From a virus: 26,493 bases of DNA. Made by a program: the position numbers and the translations under genes. The notes beneath the pieces were generated by a model that saw nothing but the letters and a program-made list of their open reading frames with translations, had not been told where the DNA came from and searched no databases. How positions within the stretch are numbered: position 1 is the stretch's first letter; each line of letters opens with the position of its first letter. Positions 5,165-25,056 of this stretch are shown here, in pieces. Location of the stretch: positions 1-26,493 of IMG/VR virus record IMGVR_UViG_3300036884_000038. One strand, written 5' to 3'.

Positions 5165-5536
5165 TTACATAGCTTCTTTGATGCACCAGAACTTTACATC
5201 TGTTCCGCCTGCATTAATGGTGATGACGACAGTCCCGTTGGATTGATTGAACCCAGCGGGTTGTATCTTGGGAAGGACTGACAATAGCCCAATCCCTACC
5301 GTATAGACGATATCCCCTAGACGGTTGAAGCCATTGAGGACACTCTTGACGGTGATGACCTGCGAGGCAGCGCCACCCTTGACGAGAATGATCTCATTCC
5401 CATCACAAGGGAAACTCACGCCATCTGCAGCGGTGGTGGCAGATTCGCCCACACCAATATCCAACGACAGAGCCGTTGGAGGCAGGGTTGGGTAATTCTT
5501 GGGCATTTGAAAGACGGTAAGCGGTACGACAGCCAT
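5165..5536 (-). CDS. Neck/tail-region structural protein, paralog of the adjacent gene
   Basis: 123 residues with an AAGGAG site before ATG. It is a clear paralog of the next gene upstream (5547-5918): both are 123 residues, start with a Val/Leu-rich strand then QMP-x-x-YP, contain DGxxFPxxGxEIIxV-type segments and a PxxQPxGxxNxxG motif, and end in a beta strand. Small beta-sandwich proteins in this position are often tail terminators or virion decoration proteins. I do not recognise the family, so the role is left open. Confidence 0.65.
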   Translation of the reverse strand: MAVVPLTVFQMPKNYPTLPPTALSLDIGVGESATTAADGVSFPCDGNEIILVKGGAASQVITVKSVLNGFNRLGDIVYTVGIGLLSVLPKIQPAGFNQSNGTVVITINAGGTDVKFWCIKEAM

Positions 5537-5546
5537 TGGTTACTCC

Positions 5547-5918
5547 TTAATCAGAAAGTTTGAGAACGATGAACTCCACGGCTGTGTCTGAAGCAACCAT
5601 GTGGAGATTTCCAGATGGATTAGCCCAACCCTGAGGTTGGAACTGTGGCAGCATCATGTATTCGCCTGCTCCCAGGGAGTAGGTCGTGACATCGCCGGTG
5701 CGACTGAATGGATCAGCGTAACTGGTGACGGTCAGGGTCTTGGCTCCAACAGCGCCATTATGCACGATCACGATCTCTTTGCCGGTGACGGGAAACTCAG
5801 CCCCATCAGCGCACGAGGCGCCAGCAGGTGTGAATGCGATGTCCCACAGGTTAGCCGCCGGTTGCAGCACAGGATATTTCGCCGGCATTTGATACGGGGT
5901 CAAAGTTAAAGCAGTCAT
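5547..5918 (-). CDS. Neck/tail-region structural protein, paralog of the adjacent gene
   Basis: 123 residues, beginning MTALTLTPYQMPAKYP. The stop codon of the upstream DUF3168-like gene lies within its AAAGGAGTAA ribosome site, so the two are closely coupled. It pairs with the 5165-5536 gene as an equal-length tandem duplicate. Predicted mostly beta. Its location between tail completion genes and the tail tube suggests a virion protein. Function is otherwise unknown. Confidence 0.65.
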   Translation of the reverse strand: MTALTLTPYQMPAKYPVLQPAANLWDIAFTPAGASCADGAEFPVTGKEIVIVHNGAVGAKTLTVTSYADPFSRTGDVTTYSLGAGEYMMLPQFQPQGWANPSGNLHMVASDTAVEFIVLKLSD

Positions 5919-5921
5919 AAT

Positions 5922-6281
5922 TTACTCCTTTGTGGCCATAAAGCCAATTTCTACACGAACATAATTTAGGTCGGTAACGTCCTCAAGACCATCCGTCCGA
6001 CCTTCAACAAACATATTGTTACGATTGATCACGTCTTCCAGGGCATTGGCGATACTGTCGGCAACGTCGCTGGTGGATGACCAGCAGGTGAACTGCCACC
6101 TTGGAAAGGTTACCACCGTCTTGGAGTGAGTGTACTCCTTGGCCGTGCTGACACGCTGGAAGACGATGTTAGGAAGGACAGCCGTCTTGGGCATGCGGTT
6201 ACGATAGATACGAGTAGAGACCAGGGTCGCAAGTGTGACGTCCATCTTCAACATGGTCAAGAGGTCTTGGGCGATGGTCAT
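5922..6281 (-). CDS. Tail completion/terminator protein, DUF3168 (gp17-like)
   Basis: 119 residues. The layout fits DUF3168 and gp17-type tail terminator proteins: an N-terminal helix (IAQDLLTMLKMD), then VSTRIYRNRMPKTAVLPNIVFQRVS, a conserved FTCWSSTSDVADSIANALEDVI helix given here in two parts (FTCWSSTSD and VADSIANALEDVI), and a final strand. It overlaps the gp10-like gene by ATGA. Members of this family cap the tail tube and join it to the neck. Confidence 0.7.
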   Translation of the reverse strand: MTIAQDLLTMLKMDVTLATLVSTRIYRNRMPKTAVLPNIVFQRVSTAKEYTHSKTVVTFPRWQFTCWSSTSDVADSIANALEDVINRNNMFVEGRTDGLEDVTDLNYVRVEIGFMATKE

Positions 6282-6628
6282 GGTATTTGTTTCTCCATTT
6301 CCTTGCTCATCTCCGTCTCGATTTCATCCATGTGTTCGTCGATGGCAGGCCGCAGGTACGGTTCAGCCGCCATCTTAGAAGTACCAAATTCCACGAACGA
6401 GGCATAATCAGCCGCATAGCCCACAATAGGGCTGGTATCCTCTCTATCAAGCTGCCCGGTGCTGCGAAGGAAACCTGTGTCCACTGGAGTGTTGATGAGA
6501 GCATATCTCAGGATCACCTTGGCTCCAGCCAACAGGATATTGAACAAGTTCTCGCCTTGGGCTGCCTTGATAGCATTAGCCAACCTTTCGTCTTGCTTAC
6601 CCCAGTCACCTACTAAAATCACTTTCAT
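6278..6628 (-). CDS. HK97 gp10-like tail completion protein
   Basis: 116 residues. It contains the ALINTPVDTGFLRSTGQLD pattern followed by GYAADYASFVEFGTSKMAAEPYLRPA, shown here as GYAADYASFVEFGTSK and AEPYLRPA. That motif order (PVDTG-LR then Y-x-x-FVEFGT then P-Y-L-RPA) is diagnostic of HK97 gp10 and related minor tail or neck proteins. It follows a 13-codon micro-ORF whose stop overlaps this start (ATGA), and its own stop overlaps the DUF3168-like gene. Confidence 0.85.
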   Translation of the reverse strand: MKVILVGDWGKQDERLANAIKAAQGENLFNILLAGAKVILRYALINTPVDTGFLRSTGQLDREDTSPIVGYAADYASFVEFGTSKMAAEPYLRPAIDEHMDEIETEMSKEMEKQIP

Positions 6629-6666
6629 CGTTCTCCGCCGTCTGTTGGAACAAATATTTTAGTCAT
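6625..6666 (-). CDS. 13-codon micro-ORF coupled to the gp10-like gene
   Basis: It starts with ATG seven bases after a strong AGGAG site, encodes MTKIFVPTDGGER and stops in an ATGA overlap with the gp10-like start. The gp10-like gene itself lacks a comparable ribosome site, so this micro-ORF may serve as a translational entry for it. It could also be the remnant of a longer neck gene disrupted by the neighbouring tailspike. Whether the peptide has a function is unknown. Confidence 0.4.
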   Translation of the reverse strand: MTKIFVPTDGGER

Positions 6667-6790
6667 GATAAACTCCTACATTCAAGGTTAACTTATTTCT
6701 TCGCCATCCTCTGTACGCTGGTTTGCAATACCAACCGCCAGTCAATTGATTGTCGTCCCAAATTGAGACATCGGGGAGTAATGCGTTCAT
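6659..6790 (-). CDS. Small hypothetical ORF (43 residues)
   Basis: It starts ten bases after the tailspike stop and encodes a 43-residue peptide beginning MNALLPDVSIWDDNQL, rich in Trp and basic residues (YRGWRRNK). The ribosome site is weak, but it fills an otherwise empty 170-base gap and overlaps the micro-ORF at 6625-6666 by eight bases. It may be real or a remnant. I recognise no family. Confidence 0.35.
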   Translation of the reverse strand: MNALLPDVSIWDDNQLTGGWYCKPAYRGWRRNKLTLNVGVYHD

Positions 6791-6800
6791 TTCATATCTT

Positions 6801-8420
6801 CTATGTTCCTGCCGTCATCTGTCTCATAATGTTTCCGGCCTGGTTGATAGGAGCCAAGAAACACACAACTTGATTTCCTAAAGTTACATCAGCTCCAGTA
6901 ATGGTATATAGATTGCCACTCTGTTTTAATGTCAGACCTGCACCCGTATTTCTAATCCCAAATGGACGAGAGGCAATGATCTGAGCGATGTTCTTAGTTT
7001 GAGAAGTCATATACATTGAGTCGCTGCCAATATTGATTATTGTATTAGCACTTGCGTCGTAATAAAGAATTTCCCTATTGAACAAATTGTCAAGCAAAAC
7101 CTGTTTAGTCATATCCGCTACACCTACTTTTATCCATCCCTTGTACACAAGTGGAGAGTCGTTATAGGCAGTCCGGTAACTTCCTGTTGTTGTAATGGTT
7201 TCGTTATTGGTTATTGTAACCCCGGCTGTACAGCCATCCGGCACAGTTATACCGATCAACGGATAGTTTGTAGAGACCACCATCTTGTTATTGTGGATAG
7301 CATAAGTACCGCCGTTGTCTGAAACTACCAACCCGATAAAACCTTCAAAGTTGGATGACGCTCCTGCATCGTCCAGTTGGTTGCCGGAAATCTCGTAATT
7401 TCCTGGCCCCATATAACATTGAATCATGTAGTGTCCACTACCGCCGTCCCATCCATCACCAATCTTATTGTCCTTTATCGCGATATTTGCGAATAGCGAT
7501 GGATTTCCCACCCTGTCCATAATTAAAATACCGTCGGCTGTATATAAACCGGAAATATGATTATTATAGATACGTGTCTTAACTAATTGGTGGACTTCAT
7601 TGTCCACCCAAATAGGGGTATTTCCTGCCAAGACCGATGTATTTTGAATCTGATTGTCATGAATATCTAAATAATATCCACCACATTCGCAAGGTTGCCA
7701 AACATCCTTGAAAATATTGTTATGGATATTGACACATGTGGGCACAATTATGGATATTCCGTCATGTCCTAAATTGTCAAATAAATTGCTTGATATTTCA
7801 AAGTCTTTCAATAGTCTATCAGAATATATTTGTTCGACACGTCCGGATCTGAATACACAATCTTTTACGCAACCTCCGACAACCCCCATGAGCCCTATTG
7901 CACCATTGTATCGTTCATCCCATGCATCGCCAATGCCCCAAATTCCCAGAAAGGTCATACCAAAGCATCGGAAATTATGTACTTGCAACCCACTTTCTGT
8001 TGGTATTCCTGCCACTACCGCGCGGACTCCAGTGTTGAATACTCGGATTAGGCCACCACCGTAAGGAGAAGCCCATAAATGTGTGACTGGATTGAAGTCG
8101 TCTGACACGTCATCCGTGTAAAGTGTTGCTCCATATCCCATCACAGTTACATTATCTTGCCAGATGTGGAAACCATGCGCTATTTTAAATATTTTGTTGG
8201 GTGGAAAGAATAATGTTCCTCCTATTGAAGGAATATCGGCGGCTGCTGCCTCTAACGCCGCTGTATCATCATGTATACCATCCCCAACCGCGCCGTAATC
8301 CATGACATTGAAAGATACCTTTCGTTCTTCCGAATCAATCAAATCGGCAAAATTCGCCTCGCTGGGAATGTCGCCAGTGTTGAAATATCCTTTTAGCGTT
8401 GTTTTATCTTGTGTTGTCAT
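6801..8420 (-). CDS. Tailspike with right-handed beta-helix (pectate lyase 3-like)
   Basis: 539 residues. The N-terminus has the virion-attachment motif common in phage fibres (LKGYFNTGDIPSEANFADLI, residues 9-28). It is followed by the pectate lyase 3/glycosidase signature YGAVGDGIHDDTAAL (residues 42-56) and then repeated N-N and D-N-turn strands typical of a beta-helix (ISSNLFDN, IHNNIFKD, IYNNHISG, IKDNKIGDG, ISGNQLDD, ITNNETI). Such tailspikes cleave or bind capsule or O-antigen polysaccharides. The placement is odd: it interrupts the connector/tail completion genes rather than following the tail tip gene. Base composition looks more AT-rich than its neighbours, suggesting acquisition. 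Confidence 0.85.
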   Translation of the reverse strand: MTTQDKTTLKGYFNTGDIPSEANFADLIDSEERKVSFNVMDYGAVGDGIHDDTAALEAAAADIPSIGGTLFFPPNKIFKIAHGFHIWQDNVTVMGYGATLYTDDVSDDFNPVTHLWASPYGGGLIRVFNTGVRAVVAGIPTESGLQVHNFRCFGMTFLGIWGIGDAWDERYNGAIGLMGVVGGCVKDCVFRSGRVEQIYSDRLLKDFEISSNLFDNLGHDGISIIVPTCVNIHNNIFKDVWQPCECGGYYLDIHDNQIQNTSVLAGNTPIWVDNEVHQLVKTRIYNNHISGLYTADGILIMDRVGNPSLFANIAIKDNKIGDGWDGGSGHYMIQCYMGPGNYEISGNQLDDAGASSNFEGFIGLVVSDNGGTYAIHNNKMVVSTNYPLIGITVPDGCTAGVTITNNETITTTGSYRTAYNDSPLVYKGWIKVGVADMTKQVLLDNLFNREILYYDASANTIINIGSDSMYMTSQTKNIAQIIASRPFGIRNTGAGLTLKQSGNLYTITGADVTLGNQVVCFLAPINQAGNIMRQMTAGT

Positions 8421-8424
8421 ATTA

Positions 8425-8874
8425 TTACCTTATTTTTGAGTAACCAACCTTACTGTAACCAACGATAAAATATAGAGACTCAGCACTTATGGAGGTTGGG
8501 AAAATCTTAGACAATGGCACGACCATACAAGTTCTGAAATAGACAGGTGGAGCAGAAACGTAGAACAACTCATTGGGAAGGGAATCGTTCCTGGAGTGCA
8601 AAGATATGCGATCTCCGACACTTAGCGACAAGGCAGAGTTACATCGCAAGAGATCATCGCACTTACCGATATCAATCTGACCGAGACCATAAGCCTGGGT
8701 AGAGGTGGGATTAAAGATACTGCCTTGTTTCGGCGCGCCGTCCAGGAACACTGAAATAAGCCCACCATCAACATCGGGGATTTCAGTAAGGATACCAATA
8801 AGAAACCAGTCAGCATAACTGGAGTCCTGCTCAGCCACCATAGACTTGACTTCGCCTGAACGGATTGGCTTCAT
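8425..8874 (-). CDS. Head-tail joining/neck protein (hypothetical)
   Basis: 149 residues. The start overlaps the connector gene by ATGA. The beta-rich middle (GILTEIPDVDGGLISVFLDG; LSLSVGDRISLHSRNDSL) looks like an OB-type or stopper fold, and the order connector, this gene, gp10-like, DUF3168 (ignoring the tailspike) is the standard head-tail joining order, in which this slot is the stopper. The C-terminus has a short internal repeat, VGYSKVGYSKIR. The function is inferred from order. Confidence 0.6.
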   Translation of the reverse strand: MKPIRSGEVKSMVAEQDSSYADWFLIGILTEIPDVDGGLISVFLDGAPKQGSIFNPTSTQAYGLGQIDIGKCDDLLRCNSALSLSVGDRISLHSRNDSLPNELFYVSAPPVYFRTCMVVPLSKIFPTSISAESLYFIVGYSKVGYSKIR

Positions 8875-9287
8875 GCCAGGTCACCGTAATTCAATCTGCC
8901 ATAAGGGTTGTCAGGATAATTAACGGTCCCTACGGCAATCTGGAAGGCGGAGTAATATCCAGCGGCATCCTGTTCAGCCAATTCCAACTGCTTGAGGATC
9001 ATGTCGTGCATTTGGTTTCGGTGGTAACTGGCGGAGCCATCGCTGTAAGCGTAATCGGCTGCCACCTGTTTTACGGCAGCTTTCCACGCTTCCACGCGGG
9101 CGATCTTGCGGATCTTGTCTATGTCAGTGGCGTCAGCAATATCTGTAATGCCATAAACGAGCATGGCATCATTGACAGGTTCAGCCAACTTGGCTAAGGT
9201 CATGTCTATGGCCAGGGCAACGTCGCCCAATTCAGCCAACATGAAAGTAGCCAGAGAAATTTCGGTGTAACTGGTCGGTATACTCAT
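8871..9287 (-). CDS. Head-tail connector (adaptor) protein
   Basis: 138 residues from the second of two near-adjacent ATGs; the first ATG (9291-9293) abuts the AAGGAG site too closely. Predicted all-helical, with MLAELGDVALAIDMTLAKLA and a KIRKIARVEAWKAAVKQVAADY segment, as in gp6/gp15-type adaptors that bind the portal. It lies directly after the capsid gene, and its ribosome site lies in an RNA stem described separately. It overlaps the neck gene by ATGA. The identity is based on fold impression and position. Confidence 0.6.
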   Translation of the reverse strand: MSIPTSYTEISLATFMLAELGDVALAIDMTLAKLAEPVNDAMLVYGITDIADATDIDKIRKIARVEAWKAAVKQVAADYAYSDGSASYHRNQMHDMILKQLELAEQDAAGYYSAFQIAVGTVNYPDNPYGRLNYGDLA

Positions 9288-9291
9288 TGAC

Positions 9292-9350
9292 ATTCTCCTT
9301 GGCTGAGCCAGAGGAGGGCTGGCTCAGCCTCACCCAGCCACCAGGAGAAT
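9292..9350 (-). promoter_or_regulatory. mRNA stem-loop between capsid and connector genes that sequesters a ribosome site
   Basis: There is a perfect 11-bp inverted repeat (GGCTGAGCCAG at 9301-9311 and CTGGCTCAGCC at 9319-9329) with a 7-base loop. It is enclosed by a second perfect 8-bp pair (ATTCTCCT at 9292-9299 and AGGAGAAT at 9343-9350). In the mRNA the outer stem contains the connector gene's AAGGAG site, and the 5' arm starts two bases after the capsid stop codon. The loop reads CCCTCCT, itself complementary to AGGAG. No T-run follows, so it is not a classical terminator. It probably lowers and couples connector translation relative to capsid protein. Confidence 0.75.
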
Positions 9351-9352
9351 GG

Positions 9353-10414
9353 TTAGGCTATAACACAATCAAGCCAGCCAGCATTGATAGCATTGCAAGC
9401 GCCGTTAGTACGGCAGTTGACGCCAATGCCAAACTCCGCTTCCATGCTTTCCCCACCAAAGGGATGAGCAGAGAAGTTCCCGGCCATGCGCAGGCCCTGC
9501 AGAGCGCCAGCCGATGAACGCTGGCGGAAGGCCAACGGTTTACGGCTATCACCGGCGTCATAGGCCATCTGATAGTTCGCAGGCATCCAGGGTTTGACCC
9601 ATACCTCAGCCCCACCCAACAGACCGATGGCGCGGTTGTTAGCCGCGATACCACGAATGCTGGTGCGCTGGATAGGAGTAGAAGTATCGGCCGGAAGAGT
9701 GTAGCGCACGTCCACGTAGGCGCTGAAGCCCACAAAGCCACGTACAGCCGCTTCCTGAGCCACGTTGATGGCCAACCGCGGATCGGTGGTATGTCCATGT
9801 TCCAGGACATTGCTGATCAGGGTGGTCAGATTGGCTACAACCATAGGGGTTGCGCCGCTATAATGCTGGTGTGTTCCGAGGAAGACCGTACCATCCGGAG
9901 GCGCGGGCGGCACAATGCCATCGTTGTTGCAGAAGCGCTTGACGTGCAAAGTGATGTTATCCACGTTCAAGTCAACGAAGTCATAGTTGGCGTCATCTTC
10001 GAGGCAGGCTTTCTTGATCTGGCGGATGATCTGGCGCAGGTGCGCTTTCTCAGCATCCAACTGACGCTGAGCCACATCAGCCACGGTAGCATTTTCCAGC
10101 CATCGTTCGGTCCAGCCGGTATTGTACTGGAAGTCTTTGAGGGGGAAGCAGACTTCAGCTCCGCTTACCTGCTTTTGACCAGGAGCGCGACCCAGAGGAT
10201 CGACTTCGGTCATGTCAGCGACGTTTGATCCGCCCTGAATGCGGCGTGCGTCGCTCGTGATCTCACACAACTCTTGCATCATGGTGTTCACAATGTCGTT
10301 ATGCGCGGCTAAGTCAGCCCGCAGCACTTCGGCAATTGTGGTCAAGCCAAATGCTTTCGCATTAGCGAAACGAGTTGCGATCAGGTCGTCAATATTGTAA
10401 AGTCCAGTTGTCAT
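9353..10414 (-). CDS. Major capsid protein
   Basis: 353 residues starting at MTTGLYNIDDLIATRF, preceded by GGATAGGAGTAATAAC; an ATG seven codons upstream would lack such a site. It follows scaffold and capsid-cement genes and precedes the connector, the standard place of the capsid gene. The N-terminal third is helical (LTTIAEVLRADLAAHND, then ENATVADVAQRQLDAEKAHL), and the rest is mixed alpha/beta with a long C-terminal domain, consistent with an HK97-type fold. No maturation cleavage site can be identified. A stable RNA structure follows its stop. Confidence 0.8.
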   Translation of the reverse strand: MTTGLYNIDDLIATRFANAKAFGLTTIAEVLRADLAAHNDIVNTMMQELCEITSDARRIQGGSNVADMTEVDPLGRAPGQKQVSGAEVCFPLKDFQYNTGWTERWLENATVADVAQRQLDAEKAHLRQIIRQIKKACLEDDANYDFVDLNVDNITLHVKRFCNNDGIVPPAPPDGTVFLGTHQHYSGATPMVVANLTTLISNVLEHGHTTDPRLAINVAQEAAVRGFVGFSAYVDVRYTLPADTSTPIQRTSIRGIAANNRAIGLLGGAEVWVKPWMPANYQMAYDAGDSRKPLAFRQRSSAGALQGLRMAGNFSAHPFGGESMEAEFGIGVNCRTNGACNAINAGWLDCVIA

Positions 10415-10424
10415 GTTATTACTC

Positions 10425-10844
10425 CTATCCACCAATCAACTTGTAATTGGTGATCATAATATCGGTTGTGTTCAGAGCCACGGCCACACCGGTACTGTCA
10501 CCGGTTTGAGCCGTATCAATCAGGCTGCCCGTGCCCAGGACATCCAGGAACAATTGCGCCCCTTTCGTCAAGCCAGCAGCACTGTCATACAAGAAGCGAG
10601 TCCCAGGACCAAACAGCGTCACGGGTTGACCTGTCAAGACGGTCCGACCAGGGCAGCCATGAAACGATCCCTTAACATCGGCAGCTGTAGCATCGCAAAG
10701 CTGGACAAGTCCAGCGCTGTCGATATAGCAGCAAGCGCCGATTGCAAGGTCATCCCCGGCAACCAGGTCGGCAATCTGTGGAGCCCATTGAGCGGTCATA
10801 GGGTCAGCAGATGCACTAGACCAAGGAATAGCAGTACCAGCCAT
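10425..10844 (-). CDS. Capsid cement/decoration protein, DUF2190-like (copy 2)
   Basis: 139 residues with a near-perfect AAAGGAGG site. The pattern of small glycine-centred beta turns (LVAGDDLAIGACCYID, GRTVLTGQPVTLFGPGTRF, LTKGAQLFLDVLGTG) resembles DUF2190-type capsid decoration proteins. It shares the segments TGQPVTL-x-GxGTRF, GAQLFL and TTDIMITN with the gene at 10971-11378, so the two are tandem paralogs. The expected role is stabilising the capsid at its surface. Confidence 0.7.
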   Translation of the reverse strand: MAGTAIPWSSASADPMTAQWAPQIADLVAGDDLAIGACCYIDSAGLVQLCDATAADVKGSFHGCPGRTVLTGQPVTLFGPGTRFLYDSAAGLTKGAQLFLDVLGTGSLIDTAQTGDSTGVAVALNTTDIMITNYKLIGG

Positions 10845-10970: not shown

Positions 10971-11378
10971 CTAACTAAACTTCAGATGCAGATTGGTGAC
11001 CATGATATCGGTCGCATCGATTGCAAAAGCACAACCCACGGAATCACCTACACCCGCAGCAGTCGCCAGTTCCCCAGCCGTTACAGCACTCAGAAATAAT
11101 TGAGCGCCAGGCGTCAAGCCGGAAGCGGCATAGTGGAAGCGAGTACCCACACCGAGCAAAGTGACAGGTTGACCGATTGCTACCAGGCGACCGGTGAAGC
11201 CATGTATTTTAGCGGCTTCATTGTCCCCGGCAGCGGTTGACTTGTACACCAATCCATCAGCCGCCTTGATGTAGCAAGCATGCCCGTAAGCCAGCGCCTC
11301 ACCGGCGAATAGGCCGGTGATATGATCGGTGAAATAGGGCGGATCAACATTTACAGAATCAAGAGTTATTGCAGCCAT
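10971..11378 (-). CDS. Capsid cement/decoration protein, DUF2190-like (copy 1)
   Basis: 135 residues with AAGGAGT before ATG. It is a paralog of 10425-10844, with matching segments LFAGEALAYGHACYI, IGQPVTLLGVGTRFHY, LTPGAQLFLSAV and DATDIMVTN. It lies between the scaffold and capsid genes, as capsid cement genes often do. Two copies could decorate different capsid sites or provide alternative surfaces. Confidence in the structural role is moderate and comes from pattern and location. Confidence 0.7.
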   Translation of the reverse strand: MAAITLDSVNVDPPYFTDHITGLFAGEALAYGHACYIKAADGLVYKSTAAGDNEAAKIHGFTGRLVAIGQPVTLLGVGTRFHYAASGLTPGAQLFLSAVTAGELATAAGVGDSVGCAFAIDATDIMVTNLHLKFS

Positions 11379-16368: not shown

Positions 16369-17226
16369 TTATGGTTTCCAGATATAAACTATCTCCGCCT
16401 TTTCGCCACTGTGCAACCGCCATGTTTGGCCGTCGCAGGAGGGTACTAATCCCGCCTCCCATAATTTGACGCAGGGAGAGAAGTCATATTTATAGGTGAT
16501 GTCGAAAAATGAACTTGTGTAAGCCCAGACGCTGTCCCAGACGCTGTACCTGACGCTGTCCCAGACGCTGGCGCTGACGCTGTCCCAGACGCTGTCCCTG
16601 ACGCTGGCGCTGACGCTGTCCCAGACGCTGTACCTGACGCTGTCCCTGACGCTGGCGCTGACGCTGGCGCTGACGCTGTCCCTGACGCTGTCCCAGACGC
16701 TGGCGCTGGCGCTGTCCCAGACGCTGTCCCTGACGCTGTCCCTGACGCTGTCCCAGACGCTGGCGCTGGCGCTGGCGCTGACGCTGTCCCTGACGCTGTC
16801 CCAGACGCTGGCGCTGGCGCTGGCGCTGACGCTGGCGCTGACGCTGTCCCTGACGCTGTCCCAATTTTTCAGCCACTGAATTTGCTCATCTGTTACCTGC
16901 TCAACTTTTGGCAGTTTGAATGGATGAACAATCGGCTTGATAATTAACGGCTCTACGATCGTTTTGTAATCAAGGCCATTGAACCAATCTGCAACTTGCA
17001 CGCGGTCGTCAATACCGCTGTTGAGTTGGTCAACAACAAATTCACGTGACAATGGGTTGAACTCGTACTTATTGCACTTATCCTCGTCCAGGCCATTGGC
17101 TTTGCAAAGCAGGGAGTGGCTATCGTTTTCCTTGTCAAGATGTTCCTTGCGATATTGCCAATCACGATAGAAACGCTGCCCACCATGATTTTCCGGCTCG
17201 GTTACGATACTAAAGAATTTGCACAT
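16369..17226 (-). CDS. Protein with 56 tandem SV/SA/WD/RD dipeptides
   Basis: 285 residues from MCKFFSIVTEPENH; this start is supported because its leader is duplicated before the 16112-16327 gene. Residues 1-121 are a mixed globular domain (LLCKANGLDEDKCNKYEFNPLSREFVVDQL). Residues 122-233 consist entirely of dipeptides, mostly SV alternating with WD, RD, SA and a few RY. Residues 234-285 are a C-terminal segment with aromatic residues (DITYKYDFSPCVKLWEAGLV). The repeat is regular enough to form a solenoid or fibre, with Trp/Arg/Asp pairs on one face. I do not recognise the family with certainty. Function unknown. Confidence 0.75.
   Translation of the reverse strand: MCKFFSIVTEPENHGGQRFYRDWQYRKEHLDKENDSHSLLCKANGLDEDKCNKYEFNPLSREFVVDQLNSGIDDRVQVADWFNGLDYKTIVEPLIIKPIVHPFKLPKVEQVTDEQIQWLKNWDSVRDSVSASVSASASASVWDSVRDSVSASASASVWDSVRDSVRDSVWDSASASVWDSVRDSVSASVSASVRDSVRYSVWDSVSASVRDSVWDSVSASVWDSVRYSVWDSVWAYTSSFFDITYKYDFSPCVKLWEAGLVPSCDGQTWRLHSGEKAEIVYIWKP
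16528..16863 (-). repeat. Tandem hexamer/12-bp minisatellite (coding)
   Basis: 336 bases made of 6-base units; on the coding strand AGCGTC (Ser-Val) mostly alternates with TGGGAC, AGGGAC, AGCGCC or AGGTAC. There are 56 hexamers, equal to 28 units of 12 bp, in a non-uniform order. Because the unit length is a multiple of three, gains and losses keep the frame. The other two frames of this strand are also free of stops within the array. Confidence 0.9.
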
Positions 17227-17258
17227 GATATTGTCTTTCTGCCGTCTAAACGGCGAGG
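17167..17258. repeat. Direct repeat copy B (92 bp)
   Basis: This is the partner of 16265-16359, covering the leader and the first codons of the dipeptide-repeat gene. It lacks three bases present in copy A, which removes one residue from the encoded N-terminus. See copy A for the consequences. Confidence 0.9.
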
Positions 17259-17330
17259 AGTGATTTGGCGGCTCGGACTCTTCGTTTCGCACCATGCAGC
17301 CGATATATGATAGGTGACACCGCCAATTGA

Positions 17331-21693: not shown

Positions 21694-23107
21694 TGAAAGC
21701 CTGTGCTACTCTGGCAGTGTTGGCCGCATTTTCAGCCGCCCGGCCAGCTACGGCCTCGTCAATCACGTCCTGGGGGTAGCCAGCTAACTTCATGGCTGAC
21801 CCAAGAGGCAATCCGGCAGCGGTATAAATCTGCAATAAGGCAGCTCGATCAGTGTCATCCATCGGAAATACCGGGCGTGCATTGATGGTATGGTCGAAGT
21901 CGCCAGCGTCATAGGAACCAATTCCCATAAAGATATCGGCAATGGACCCCAGAGTTAGGGCATGTTTATCCGCCTTGATTAAGGCCGCTTCGAAGTTTGA
22001 ACGCGTTTCCAGCACCTTGTCTACCGTATCCCCAAGCAGCATTTCAACCGCCCGGCCAGAGATGGCGCCGGAAGTTTTCAGGTCGAAGTAAGCCAGCTCG
22101 GGTAAGTCACGTTCAATCTCGTGCATCTGGTCTTGTAGGATGGCCAGGGCATCCGCATAGTGAATATCAGGGACCAGGGCGCTCAGTGTAGACGTGCCAG
22201 GAAGGCTCAGGATCGTGTCATCTTCGATGGTAAGGGTATTTGACCCTCCAGTAACTTTAGGAGGAGGTAAAGGTTTCCCCTGGGAATCGTTGGCGTTTGC
22301 TTGGGCCACCCATAATGCCTTATTGTATCTGAACAGCATTTCATGCAAGCGGGTCGCCATTCGGTTAGCTTCGTCGATTTTATCCAGGGCATGTGCGAAG
22401 CATCCAATTCCCCAATCTTCGCCAACGTCGATGAAGCTGGCGTGAGCGAAGGGGATGAAGTCGATACCCAAAGATTTCAGAGTGTCTTGCGAAACAGGGT
22501 CTCCCAGGTAACGCTCGTCTTCCTCATATTGTCCCCTCTTATGCAGGTAAGTGGTATAGCCTTCGAGTGTCCAGATTTCCGTATGGGTTTTATCGTCGTC
22601 GGGTATATCCAACCTGATGTACGTAAGATTTCCCATCTCGTCTTCGTCATAAGCCATGACGTAACGCGGGGGGAAATATTGCTGGTGCACGGAGTCCTTA
22701 AAGGCGCTCACTGAAGTCTTGATGAACAGATCCCCATAAAGGGCGAATTGACGGACAATCAGAGACTTCTTTGCAAAGAAATTCGACCATTGCCAGATCT
22801 GCTTGATCGGGTCGATAATTTTATCATTGGCAGACACAATCGGGAGTGAAGTTCCAGGTTCCAACTTGCTGACATAGAACTCCACTACCCGGTGGGCGCA
22901 ATCCCTGAGAGGTTTCATTGCCTCATCCCATACGCCCAGGTAATAATCAGATCCAATCTGTGGGTTATAAAGGCCGTTCTGATTGTAGTAGGCATCCAAT
23001 TGCGAGTAAAAAGCTATTCGGTTCTTCAGATTGCCTTGCATCACCGGGGATTGGTGAAGCTGGAAGAAGGATAACAGGCTCGATGGAATAGTAAGTAAAT
23101 TGTTCAT
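21665..23107 (-). CDS. Portal protein
   Basis: 480 residues, in the expected place between the large terminase and the MuF gene. It begins MNNLLTIPSSLLSFFQLHQS, has a helical crown (ALDKIDEANRMATRLHEML; QDQMHEIERDLPELAYFDLK) and the FDLKTSGAISGRAVEMLLG segment common in this family, and ends in a helical, Ala-rich C-terminus. The ring of twelve copies forms the DNA entry port. It overlaps the nuclease gene by ATGA. Confidence 0.85.
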   Translation of the reverse strand: MNNLLTIPSSLLSFFQLHQSPVMQGNLKNRIAFYSQLDAYYNQNGLYNPQIGSDYYLGVWDEAMKPLRDCAHRVVEFYVSKLEPGTSLPIVSANDKIIDPIKQIWQWSNFFAKKSLIVRQFALYGDLFIKTSVSAFKDSVHQQYFPPRYVMAYDEDEMGNLTYIRLDIPDDDKTHTEIWTLEGYTTYLHKRGQYEEDERYLGDPVSQDTLKSLGIDFIPFAHASFIDVGEDWGIGCFAHALDKIDEANRMATRLHEMLFRYNKALWVAQANANDSQGKPLPPPKVTGGSNTLTIEDDTILSLPGTSTLSALVPDIHYADALAILQDQMHEIERDLPELAYFDLKTSGAISGRAVEMLLGDTVDKVLETRSNFEAALIKADKHALTLGSIADIFMGIGSYDAGDFDHTINARPVFPMDDTDRAALLQIYTAAGLPLGSAMKLAGYPQDVIDEAVAGRAAENAANTARVAQAFNAGQLPPTG

Positions 23108-23838
23108 TGATGACTCCTTGCTTTGTGGCCGTCGGCTAAAAGATTTTCCAAGAAAAGGATCAACTGACTAAAACTATCAGCCTGATCCAACTGTGGCGCG
23201 CCGGGAACTGAGAACAACTCTTCCTCAGCATCTATCAGCCACGGGTATTGTACTCCAGGCCAGGGAAGTAATATGCAATCCAACGAGCACCAGACGGCGG
23301 CCTGCGACCAGCGCGTGGGTTTGTCTACCCTTGGGTTGAAGCCCTTAAGTATCTTGGCGATATTGCCTGATAGCTTCAACGTCTGAATGGCGCCTATACC
23401 GCTGCTCTTATCTTCAATTATGATCCCGCGCAACTTGCCGTCATCGGTCTGGTAGCGGTCATGCAAGTTCTGAATGGCACTGACCAGCATGGGAAATTCC
23501 AGCCGGGCCCGGCCAATCTCAATAATCGCCAACCTGTAATCCGGTAAAAGGTCCCCTACCGTCCAAGCGGTATAAGCGGCATCTTCAGATTCAGAAGAGG
23601 CGGTATCCAGTGAAATATACCGCCCAACGCCTCCTACAAGGTCCTCAGGCAAAAATCGGTTCTTACCTTCCCACCATTCACGCTTGAATATAGATCCTGA
23701 GGGCTGTACCATGTTCCCCTGGTAGATGGTTTCGAACACCTGTGGAGGAGTAGTCCGCTGAAGTTCAAGCACCGCTTCCAACCCAAGGTGGAAAGGCCAT
23801 AATACCCGACCGTCATGCAACTTGACCAGCCTGTTCAT
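23104..23838 (-). CDS. terL: Large terminase, nuclease domain (separate gene)
   Basis: 244 residues starting at the ATG that overlaps the ATPase gene's stop (ATGA). It holds the second half of a TerL: the DGRVLWPFHLGLEAVLELQ linker segment (residues 9-27), then the RNase H-like nuclease with VGRYISLDTASSE (Asp78), GIIIEDKSSGIG (Glu142, Asp143) and QLDQADSFSQLILFL (Asp218, Asp221). These acidic residues are the probable metal-binding set that cuts the concatemer. With the ATPase gene the total is 532 residues, normal for a single-chain TerL. Confidence 0.85.
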   Translation of the reverse strand: MNRLVKLHDGRVLWPFHLGLEAVLELQRTTPPQVFETIYQGNMVQPSGSIFKREWWEGKNRFLPEDLVGGVGRYISLDTASSESEDAAYTAWTVGDLLPDYRLAIIEIGRARLEFPMLVSAIQNLHDRYQTDDGKLRGIIIEDKSSGIGAIQTLKLSGNIAKILKGFNPRVDKPTRWSQAAVWCSLDCILLPWPGVQYPWLIDAEEELFSVPGAPQLDQADSFSQLILFLENLLADGHKARSHQ

Positions 23839-24701
23839 TGTGCACCCTGTGCATCGCCTAACATCTGACCCATGAAATTTTCAGGATAATATAATTCAGC
23901 GTAACAAGGTCCATCCTGCAGCAAAGAAGTCTTGCAGATCACCCAACCCTCGCCGCTCTGCCTAATGTCAGCATAGAGGTCCGCAGCGTTCCAGGCCGTG
24001 CCTATTAAGATAACTCTTCCGCCAGATTTCAGCCTGGACAAGAACGAATTGTGGAACCATTCTTTGACGAAATGTCTCATTCCTATCGTGCGCGACAAGT
24101 TGTAGTCAATCAGGTCATCCCCTACCAGCAGGTCGGCCCGGCTGCCTACGATAGCCTGGCCGGTTCCATAACCTCTCATGCTGGGGTGTAAACGTCCCTG
24201 GGTGGCAATGCCATTGCGAGCGATACTCCATTCCGCCTGTTCCTGCTTCATGCCCCCGGCCGCGCTTATATCGGGAAATAAACTTTTCCATGTTTCGCTC
24301 TCTACCAGGCTGCGAATAGTCATCGAGCGTTTCATCGCAGTTTCAGCGTCGATTGAACCGATGATGTTATTACTCTCAGGATGGAAGGCGATATTGCAGG
24401 CCATAAAAGCCAACGCCCAGGTCGTCTTAGCGCTTTCAGGAGGGCCAATTATCAAGAGTCTCTTTATCTCAGGATTGCACATCAATTGCAGCCATAGCCA
24501 ATGATGGGCAGCCGGATAGATCGGGATACCTTTGTCGTCGCTCAAAAGCAAGGCGGCAAAGGCAGCCACGGCCTTGGGAGTCAATATCCCGATGGCCTTA
24601 TCCCGGCGGGTCGTCTCCACCAGGACTTGTTGCAGGCGACTTACTTGCAAGATCTGTCGCCGCCTTTGCAAGTCCGGTGAGATACTCTCGTAAAGCGTCA
24701 T
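23835..24701 (-). CDS. terL: Large terminase, ATPase domain (separate gene)
   Basis: 288 residues from MTLYESISPDLQ, chosen because a GGAGA site lies before it; a TTG-started extension is also possible. Walker A is GPPESAKTT (residues 86-94), Walker B is LLVGDD (191-196), and the coupling motif is GTAW (234-237). The chain ends at GDAQGAQ just before the nuclease domain. It overlaps the small terminase by 104 bases in another frame. The ATPase powers packaging through the portal. Whether it works as a two-subunit enzyme or is joined by frameshift is unknown. Confidence 0.85.
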   Translation of the reverse strand: MTLYESISPDLQRRRQILQVSRLQQVLVETTRRDKAIGILTPKAVAAFAALLLSDDKGIPIYPAAHHWLWLQLMCNPEIKRLLIIGPPESAKTTWALAFMACNIAFHPESNNIIGSIDAETAMKRSMTIRSLVESETWKSLFPDISAAGGMKQEQAEWSIARNGIATQGRLHPSMRGYGTGQAIVGSRADLLVGDDLIDYNLSRTIGMRHFVKEWFHNSFLSRLKSGGRVILIGTAWNAADLYADIRQSGEGWVICKTSLLQDGPCYAELYYPENFMGQMLGDAQGAQ

Positions 24702-25056
24702 CTGATAAGTTCTCCAAATCTGGACCAATGGCTTCCCTGATCGGGCCGCCTTCTATACCAGTTGTTTCGATTCTGGTGGAATATCCACGGTTCTTGCCTC
24801 TTGTTTTCAATACCTGGATGGCAATTTTAGCGTTACCCTTTTTGATTGCCTTATAAACCGCGTTCTCGGCATCATCCAGGAATTGTTCGCCTGCTGTCAC
24901 AAAGGCATCTCTAATCTGCTTAGACTTAGTCGATCGTGCGTAGATTGCTTGATAGCTAACGCCTAGAGATTTAGCCACCAACGTGGGGAAGGGCCCTACC
25001 TTCAATATTTTATTGACTATTATCTCAACCGAAAGCTTTATCCGTTTACCAGTCAT
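24598..25056 (-). CDS. terS: Small terminase subunit
   Basis: 152 residues with an AAAGGTG site. The N-terminal helix-turn-helix (FPTLVAKSLGVSYQAIYARS, residues 23-42) is followed by helices for oligomerisation (QIRDAFVTAGEQFLDDAENA, KGNAKIAIQVLKTRGKNRGY), and the C-terminus is acidic/Pro-rich. It lies immediately before the large terminase, as expected. The protein would recognise the packaging site; the site itself is not identifiable here. Confidence 0.75.
   Translation of the reverse strand: MTGKRIKLSVEIIVNKILKVGPFPTLVAKSLGVSYQAIYARSTKSKQIRDAFVTAGEQFLDDAENAVYKAIKKGNAKIAIQVLKTRGKNRGYSTRIETTGIEGGPIREAIGPDLENLSDDALREYLTGLAKAATDLASKSPATSPGGDDPPG

Follow-up and report, generated by a model that had tools for sequence, protein, structure and literature searches.

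We analyzed a viral contig of 26,493 nucleotides (IMG/VR record IMGVR_UViG_3300036884_000038, positions 1 to 26,493; hereafter the window) and found a nested, perfectly paired RNA structure in the gap between the major capsid protein (MCP) gene and the gene that follows it. We interpret it, with a probability of roughly one half, as a post-capsid intercistronic hairpin on the head-gene transcript: a boundary free of a U-tract that would protect the capsid message at its 3′ end and insulate translation of the two cistrons, with modest translational coupling. The interpretation builds on the structure itself and its improbability, the recurrence of hairpins at the same position and the compensatory maintenance of their stems in relatives, and the lack of a U-tract. 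A phage has to make hundreds of capsid subunits but few connectors from a single operon, and we know of no account of how most phages set this ratio. A hairpin that recurs with unrelated sequence and is kept by compensatory change is a simple, testable candidate mechanism for it, and its recurrence at the capsid gap offers a computational route to the same element in other phages.

Layout of the Post-Capsid Gap

The head and tail genes of the contig are on the minus strand, and the features of the gap are listed in Table 1. The capsid gene has a Shine–Dalgarno (SD) motif, AGGAG, 8 nt upstream of its ATG. Two adjacent similar genes (10425-10844 and 10971-11378; 47% identical), probably capsid-decoration-like, come before it. 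On the minus-strand RNA, the sequence 3′ of the capsid TAA reads C CATTCTCCT GGTGGCTGGGTGA GGCTGAGCCAG CCCTCCT CTGGCTCAGCC A AGGAGAATG TCA ATG, and the gap from the capsid stop to the better-spaced ATG (9287) is 65 nt long. The spacing of the AAGGAG motif is 1 nt to the first ATG (9293) and 7 nt to the second (9287), which makes the latter the more likely start of the downstream gene. The first-pass annotation, which proposed an RNA switch at this place, had put the AAGGAG motif and the first ATG within the outer stem; both do lie in that helix, but the likelier start is outside it. The same annotation was right that the 5′ arm begins two bases past the capsid stop, on the second base after the TAA; the arm covers positions +2 to +10 and is within the footprint of a ribosome standing on the stop.

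The downstream gene is likely a head–tail connector, given its position and the low-identity homologues found at the same place. It stands between the capsid gene and the HK97-gp10-like and tail terminator genes, and homologues of 30 to 38% identity follow the capsid gene in three related loci (L174, L175, and L179). These observations favor the label "connector" that the gene had been given, against which stands the lack of any protein family match. A BLAST comparison with the counterpart in L112 gave no match, and a structure model made from the one sequence was all-helical and of low confidence (pLDDT 49).

Table 1. Features of the gap between the capsid gene and the putative connector gene, in window coordinates
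Feature	Position	Strand	Remarks
Major capsid protein gene	9353..10414	minus	ATG at 10414, stop TAA 9355-9353; PHROG 3990 major head protein, E = 6e-35
Outer helix, 5′ arm CATTCTCCT, anti-SD-like	9343..9351	minus	one base separates the arm from the capsid stop
Inner hairpin, 5′ arm GGCTGAGCCAG	9319..9329	minus	repeat search
Inner loop CCCTCCT	9312..9318	minus	repeat search
Inner hairpin, 3′ arm CTGGCTCAGCC	9301..9311	minus	SD directly 3′; no U-tract
SD motif AAGGAG of the downstream gene	9295..9300	minus	sequence
Outer helix, 3′ arm AGGAGAATG	9291..9299	minus	SD and first ATG at 9293
Downstream gene, putative head–tail connector	8871..9287	minus	likely start 9287; alternative ATG 9293

Chance Expectation and Predicted Folding

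The gap had been described as holding two nested perfect inverted repeats. Both are present, the inner helix with the 11 bp described and the outer one with 9 bp instead of 8. Besides the inner repeat, the 26.5 kb has no other perfect repeat of at least 11 bp with a loop of 3 to 12 nt, and 12 shuffles of the whole window contained none. Among 5,000 dinucleotide shuffles of the gap, 0.14% contained an inner repeat of at least 11 bp and 0.44% an outer repeat of at least 9 bp, while none contained both.

The gap folded with a z score of −3.1 relative to dinucleotide shuffles, a value that weakened with other cut points (−1.9 for 9270-9365). Thermodynamic folding, which the first-pass annotation had proposed as a check, preserved the outer helix but not in every case the inner one: in the fold predicted for 9270-9365, the loop bases CCCTCC pair with the upstream GGGTGAGG and the simple 11-bp hairpin is lost, so the inner part of the structure may alternate between folds. 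A scan with the Rfam covariance models produced no match above the gathering score in the window.

Hairpins at the Capsid Gap of Relatives

An exact DNA search for the hairpin matched only a near-identical contig (IMGVR 3300037090_000011), and since this sole close copy has no mismatches to the window over 9270-9380, the window's own stem provides no covariation test. Capsid-based searches gave two sets of relatives: a distant set with MCPs about 25% identical, including the phages Predator, Barnyard, Patience, and Wollypog, and a closer set with MCPs 31 to 53% identical, including prophages in Chloroflexota that were found with an alignment of close relatives as the query. A single-protein MCP query against bacterial genomes gave no match, and a sample of 400 Chloroflexota genomes added nothing to the seeds except one weak match. 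Gaps and start codons of the relatives were assigned with a simple script.

In both sets, the post-capsid gap was either short (<35 nt) or longer, mostly 45 to 95 nt, with a strong hairpin in most cases. We compared the folding of these gaps with that of other gaps of the same loci in two tests that are not fully independent, the window being in both and a few loci being common to both sets: the median fold z score was −3.5 for the 37 long gaps of the closer clade vs. −0.7 for 71 other gaps (p = 6e-8) and −4.3 for the 24 capsid gaps of the distant family vs. −0.6 for 102 others (p = 5e-7). Gaps of <35 nt were found instead in 27 of the 65 closer-clade loci; these relatives, about 40% of the closer ones, have no hairpin in the gap, a point against the interpretation that we favor.

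The stem sequences are unrelated between lineages, yet the stems are maintained by compensatory changes in the pairs of relatives that could be aligned, and the hairpin as a class therefore looks like a selected, position-specific feature. The stem of L112/L225 shows 8 double changes and none broken out of 14, and that of L025/L030 shows 2 double changes; L180/L191, L191/L192, and Predator/Damien have 1 double change each and none broken, while the pair Barnyard/DrLupo was left out, its alignment not recovering the stem. The compensatory changes include G–U pairs. Conserved pairing or covariation in related phages had been named as a test of the proposed switch: the hairpin recurs and its stems are compensated, but the pairing between the 5′ arm and the SD was not enriched across the whole clade when the 5′ segment was shuffled. 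The genes downstream of the hairpin differ among relatives, which indicates that the element travels with the capsid gene and not with the gene following it.

Proposed Trapping of the SD Motif

According to the first-pass annotation, a ribosome finishing the capsid gene would melt the outer stem and so couple connector synthesis to capsid synthesis. We modeled the cost of opening the AAGGAG motif on a segment with 40 nt of flanking sequence upstream of the gap and as much downstream of the second ATG. Covering the capsid stop and 12 nt lowered the modeled cost from 3.0 to 1.0 kcal/mol, which, together with the reach of the footprint, agrees with the proposed melting; the closed state, however, was not tighter than in shuffled gaps (mean 4.15 kcal/mol), 81% of which were at least as tight. 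The contrast between the closed and covered states was exceeded by 6% of the gap shuffles (P = 0.06). The covered state was unusually open, <1% of the shuffles being equally open; the probable reason is that C-rich bases able to pair with the SD are tied up in the inner hairpin. With only the 5′ arm shuffled, the cost of opening the 16-nt start site decreased from 3.9 to 2.6 ± 0.5 kcal/mol, so the outer stem is estimated to add about 1.3 kcal/mol. When the 34 start sites of the window were ranked by opening cost, ATG 9293 came first and ATG 9287 came 11th.

The loop CCCTCCT had also been proposed as a second trap for the SD. Pairing of the loop with AAGGAG in cis would have the geometry of an H-type pseudoknot in which 0 to 2 nt must span 11 bp, and it is therefore unlikely with the stem intact; we consider such a trap sterically implausible while the 11-bp stem is closed.

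The layout of stop codon, anti-SD-like arm, hairpin, and abutting AAGGAG was found in five related loci (L177, L188, L191, L192, and L264), and a CCTCC loop is also present in L180, L191, and L192. In the capsid tree, the members of the five loci present there are scattered, together with the window, in several places, and several of them are close kin. In a subset of loci chosen post hoc for the hairpin abutting the SD, 6 of 9 have an anti-SD arm, compared with 2 of 16 (p = 0.01), and 4 of 9 have an anti-SD loop, compared with 0 of 16 (p = 0.01). The combined on/off contrast in the SD-abutting loci gave p = 0.03, again post hoc and owing in part to L204, which is without the arm; in most of the abutting relatives, the contrast is about 1 kcal/mol or less. 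As most relatives retain the hairpin without SD trapping, trapping is not the shared function of their hairpins. The models leave it possible in the window and in some of its kin, and the RNA switch as originally described is partly supported.

Other Features of the Contig and Its Relatives

The terminase large subunit is divided between two genes that overlap (window 23104-24728), an ATPase half (24728..23835) corresponding to positions 274-488 of phrog_38 and a nuclease half (23838..23104) corresponding to positions 483-709. The contig ends (1-510 and 25984-26493) align without gaps over 510 bp at 89% identity and form a diverged end repeat, which may reflect either strain variation on a circular map or a partial duplication. 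In the tail region, the adjacent genes 5165-5536 and 5547-5918 encode two 123-aa proteins that are similar by eye, and a tandem repeat array (16524-16863) inside the gene 16369-17295 codes for DSVSAS/RDSVWDSV-like repeats. The contig L008, otherwise >99% identical to the window, carries a 3.2-kb insertion of three genes (5378-8650, against window 8420-8496) that separates the tail-spike-like gene from gene 8425, whose 3′ end has been replaced; the sequences point to a recent module exchange. In L180 and L191, the place of the connector just after the capsid hairpin is taken by tiny basic proteins of 42 aa (MPKALEKKIRRTARHKGLKGKALNKY...).

A Proposed Boundary Hairpin and Its Alternatives

In the interpretation that we favor, the hairpin would lie as a boundary between a capsid cistron expressed at a very high level and a connector cistron with a low-copy product. 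It would shield the capsid message at its 3′ end once the downstream RNA has been cut and degraded and would stop ribosomes leaving the capsid stop from entering the connector start directly. The hairpin adjoins the connector SD, which the further 9-bp helix is predicted to pair with sequence just past the capsid stop; with a ribosome at the end of the capsid gene, the opening cost of the SD would drop by about 2 kcal/mol, amounting to a modest translational coupling. The boundary would thereby raise capsid relative to connector, with the coupling by the outer helix secondary and weak. Features expected of a protective hairpin were found, a stable hairpin closing the upstream cistron without a U-tract and a structure conserved among relatives in the form of positional recurrence and compensatory changes in their pairs. 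We infer that the hairpin works at the mRNA level and shifts the expression ratio by decay or insulation and not by termination. Either the stability of the mRNA or the insulation of translation is probably the means by which it sets the ratio of capsid to connector, and coupling may contribute further.

It is rather unlikely that the main function is to trap the connector SD until a capsid-finishing ribosome opens the outer helix. The SD and the first ATG are in the helix, its 5′ arm is within reach of the stop ribosome, and the modeled opening cost decreases when the arm is covered; the recurrence of the 5′ anti-SD arm with an AAGGAG-abutting hairpin in five loci and the excess of anti-SD arms and loops among abutting loci also suit such a switch. 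These points are offset by a closed state no tighter than shuffled sequence, a small contrast in most abutting relatives, and a likely start codon that is not in the helix, while enrichment is absent from the clade as a whole, the subset showing it was picked post hoc, and several of the loci are close kin. A leaky transcription terminator after the capsid gene, similar to T-phi between genes 10 and 11 of T7, would fit the position, as T-phi is annotated between the capsid gene and the next head–tail gene, and T-runs do follow the stem in a few relatives (L290, L175, and L045), to whose hairpins termination may apply. The sense strand just past the window hairpin, by contrast, reads AAGGAGAATG, with no T-run, and the hairpin was not among the predictions of a terminator scan of the window; in the distant set, only 2 of the 27 hairpins have at least four T in the 8 nt past the stem, the other 25 lacking such a run. 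The missing U-tract and the rarity of T-runs make intrinsic termination unlikely for the window hairpin, and we regard a terminator as quite improbable.

Lower still, we place the explanation that the repeats have no role in expression and represent a DNA-level palindrome, such as a recombination joint or a protein-binding site, or a chance repeat. The hairpin is a single case, identical in its sole close copy, and repeats are generally known to be frequent at phage module boundaries. The joint absence of the two repeats from the shuffled gaps and the enrichment of hairpins at the capsid gap over other gaps of the same loci argue against this explanation, and compensatory changes with G–U pairs suit an RNA better than a DNA operator.

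A wider generalization of the boundary hairpin can be offered tentatively. Throughout a broad group of HK97-type phages, the capsid gap may toggle between two designs, a short gap and one with a hairpin, the hairpin sequence having originated or been replaced repeatedly. The hairpin design would then be a general stoichiometry element of head operons that apparently has no name yet; a few lineages, the window among them, may have developed it into a switch gated by the ribosome, with both an anti-SD arm and an anti-SD loop.

Comparison with Known Systems

Our search of the open literature found no description of a post-capsid hairpin regularity in this group; the class of mechanism is already known. 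Hairpins without a U-tract that protect the upstream cistron have been documented in Escherichia coli operons, including malE-malF, where, as in the window, a stable U-less hairpin follows a highly expressed cistron and precedes a weakly expressed one (differential operon decay, PMC5927463). The malE-malF operon is, however, a bacterial transport operon with documented decay, whereas the window hairpin lies in a phage head operon, and a model documented for enterobacteria may not fit the RNase set of the phage's host.

Among phages, T7 similarly has a transcript element, T-phi, in the gap between gene 10 (capsid) and gene 11. T-phi lowers downstream expression, and it differs from the window hairpin in being an annotated terminator, the latter having no U-tract. 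In MS2, coat and replicase are translationally coupled by SD sequestration. The pairing partner in the window differs from that of MS2 in lying past the stop codon and not in the coat coding region, and the predicted trap is weak, but in both the downstream SD is part of a structure, in the window a predicted one, within reach of a ribosome translating the upstream coat gene.
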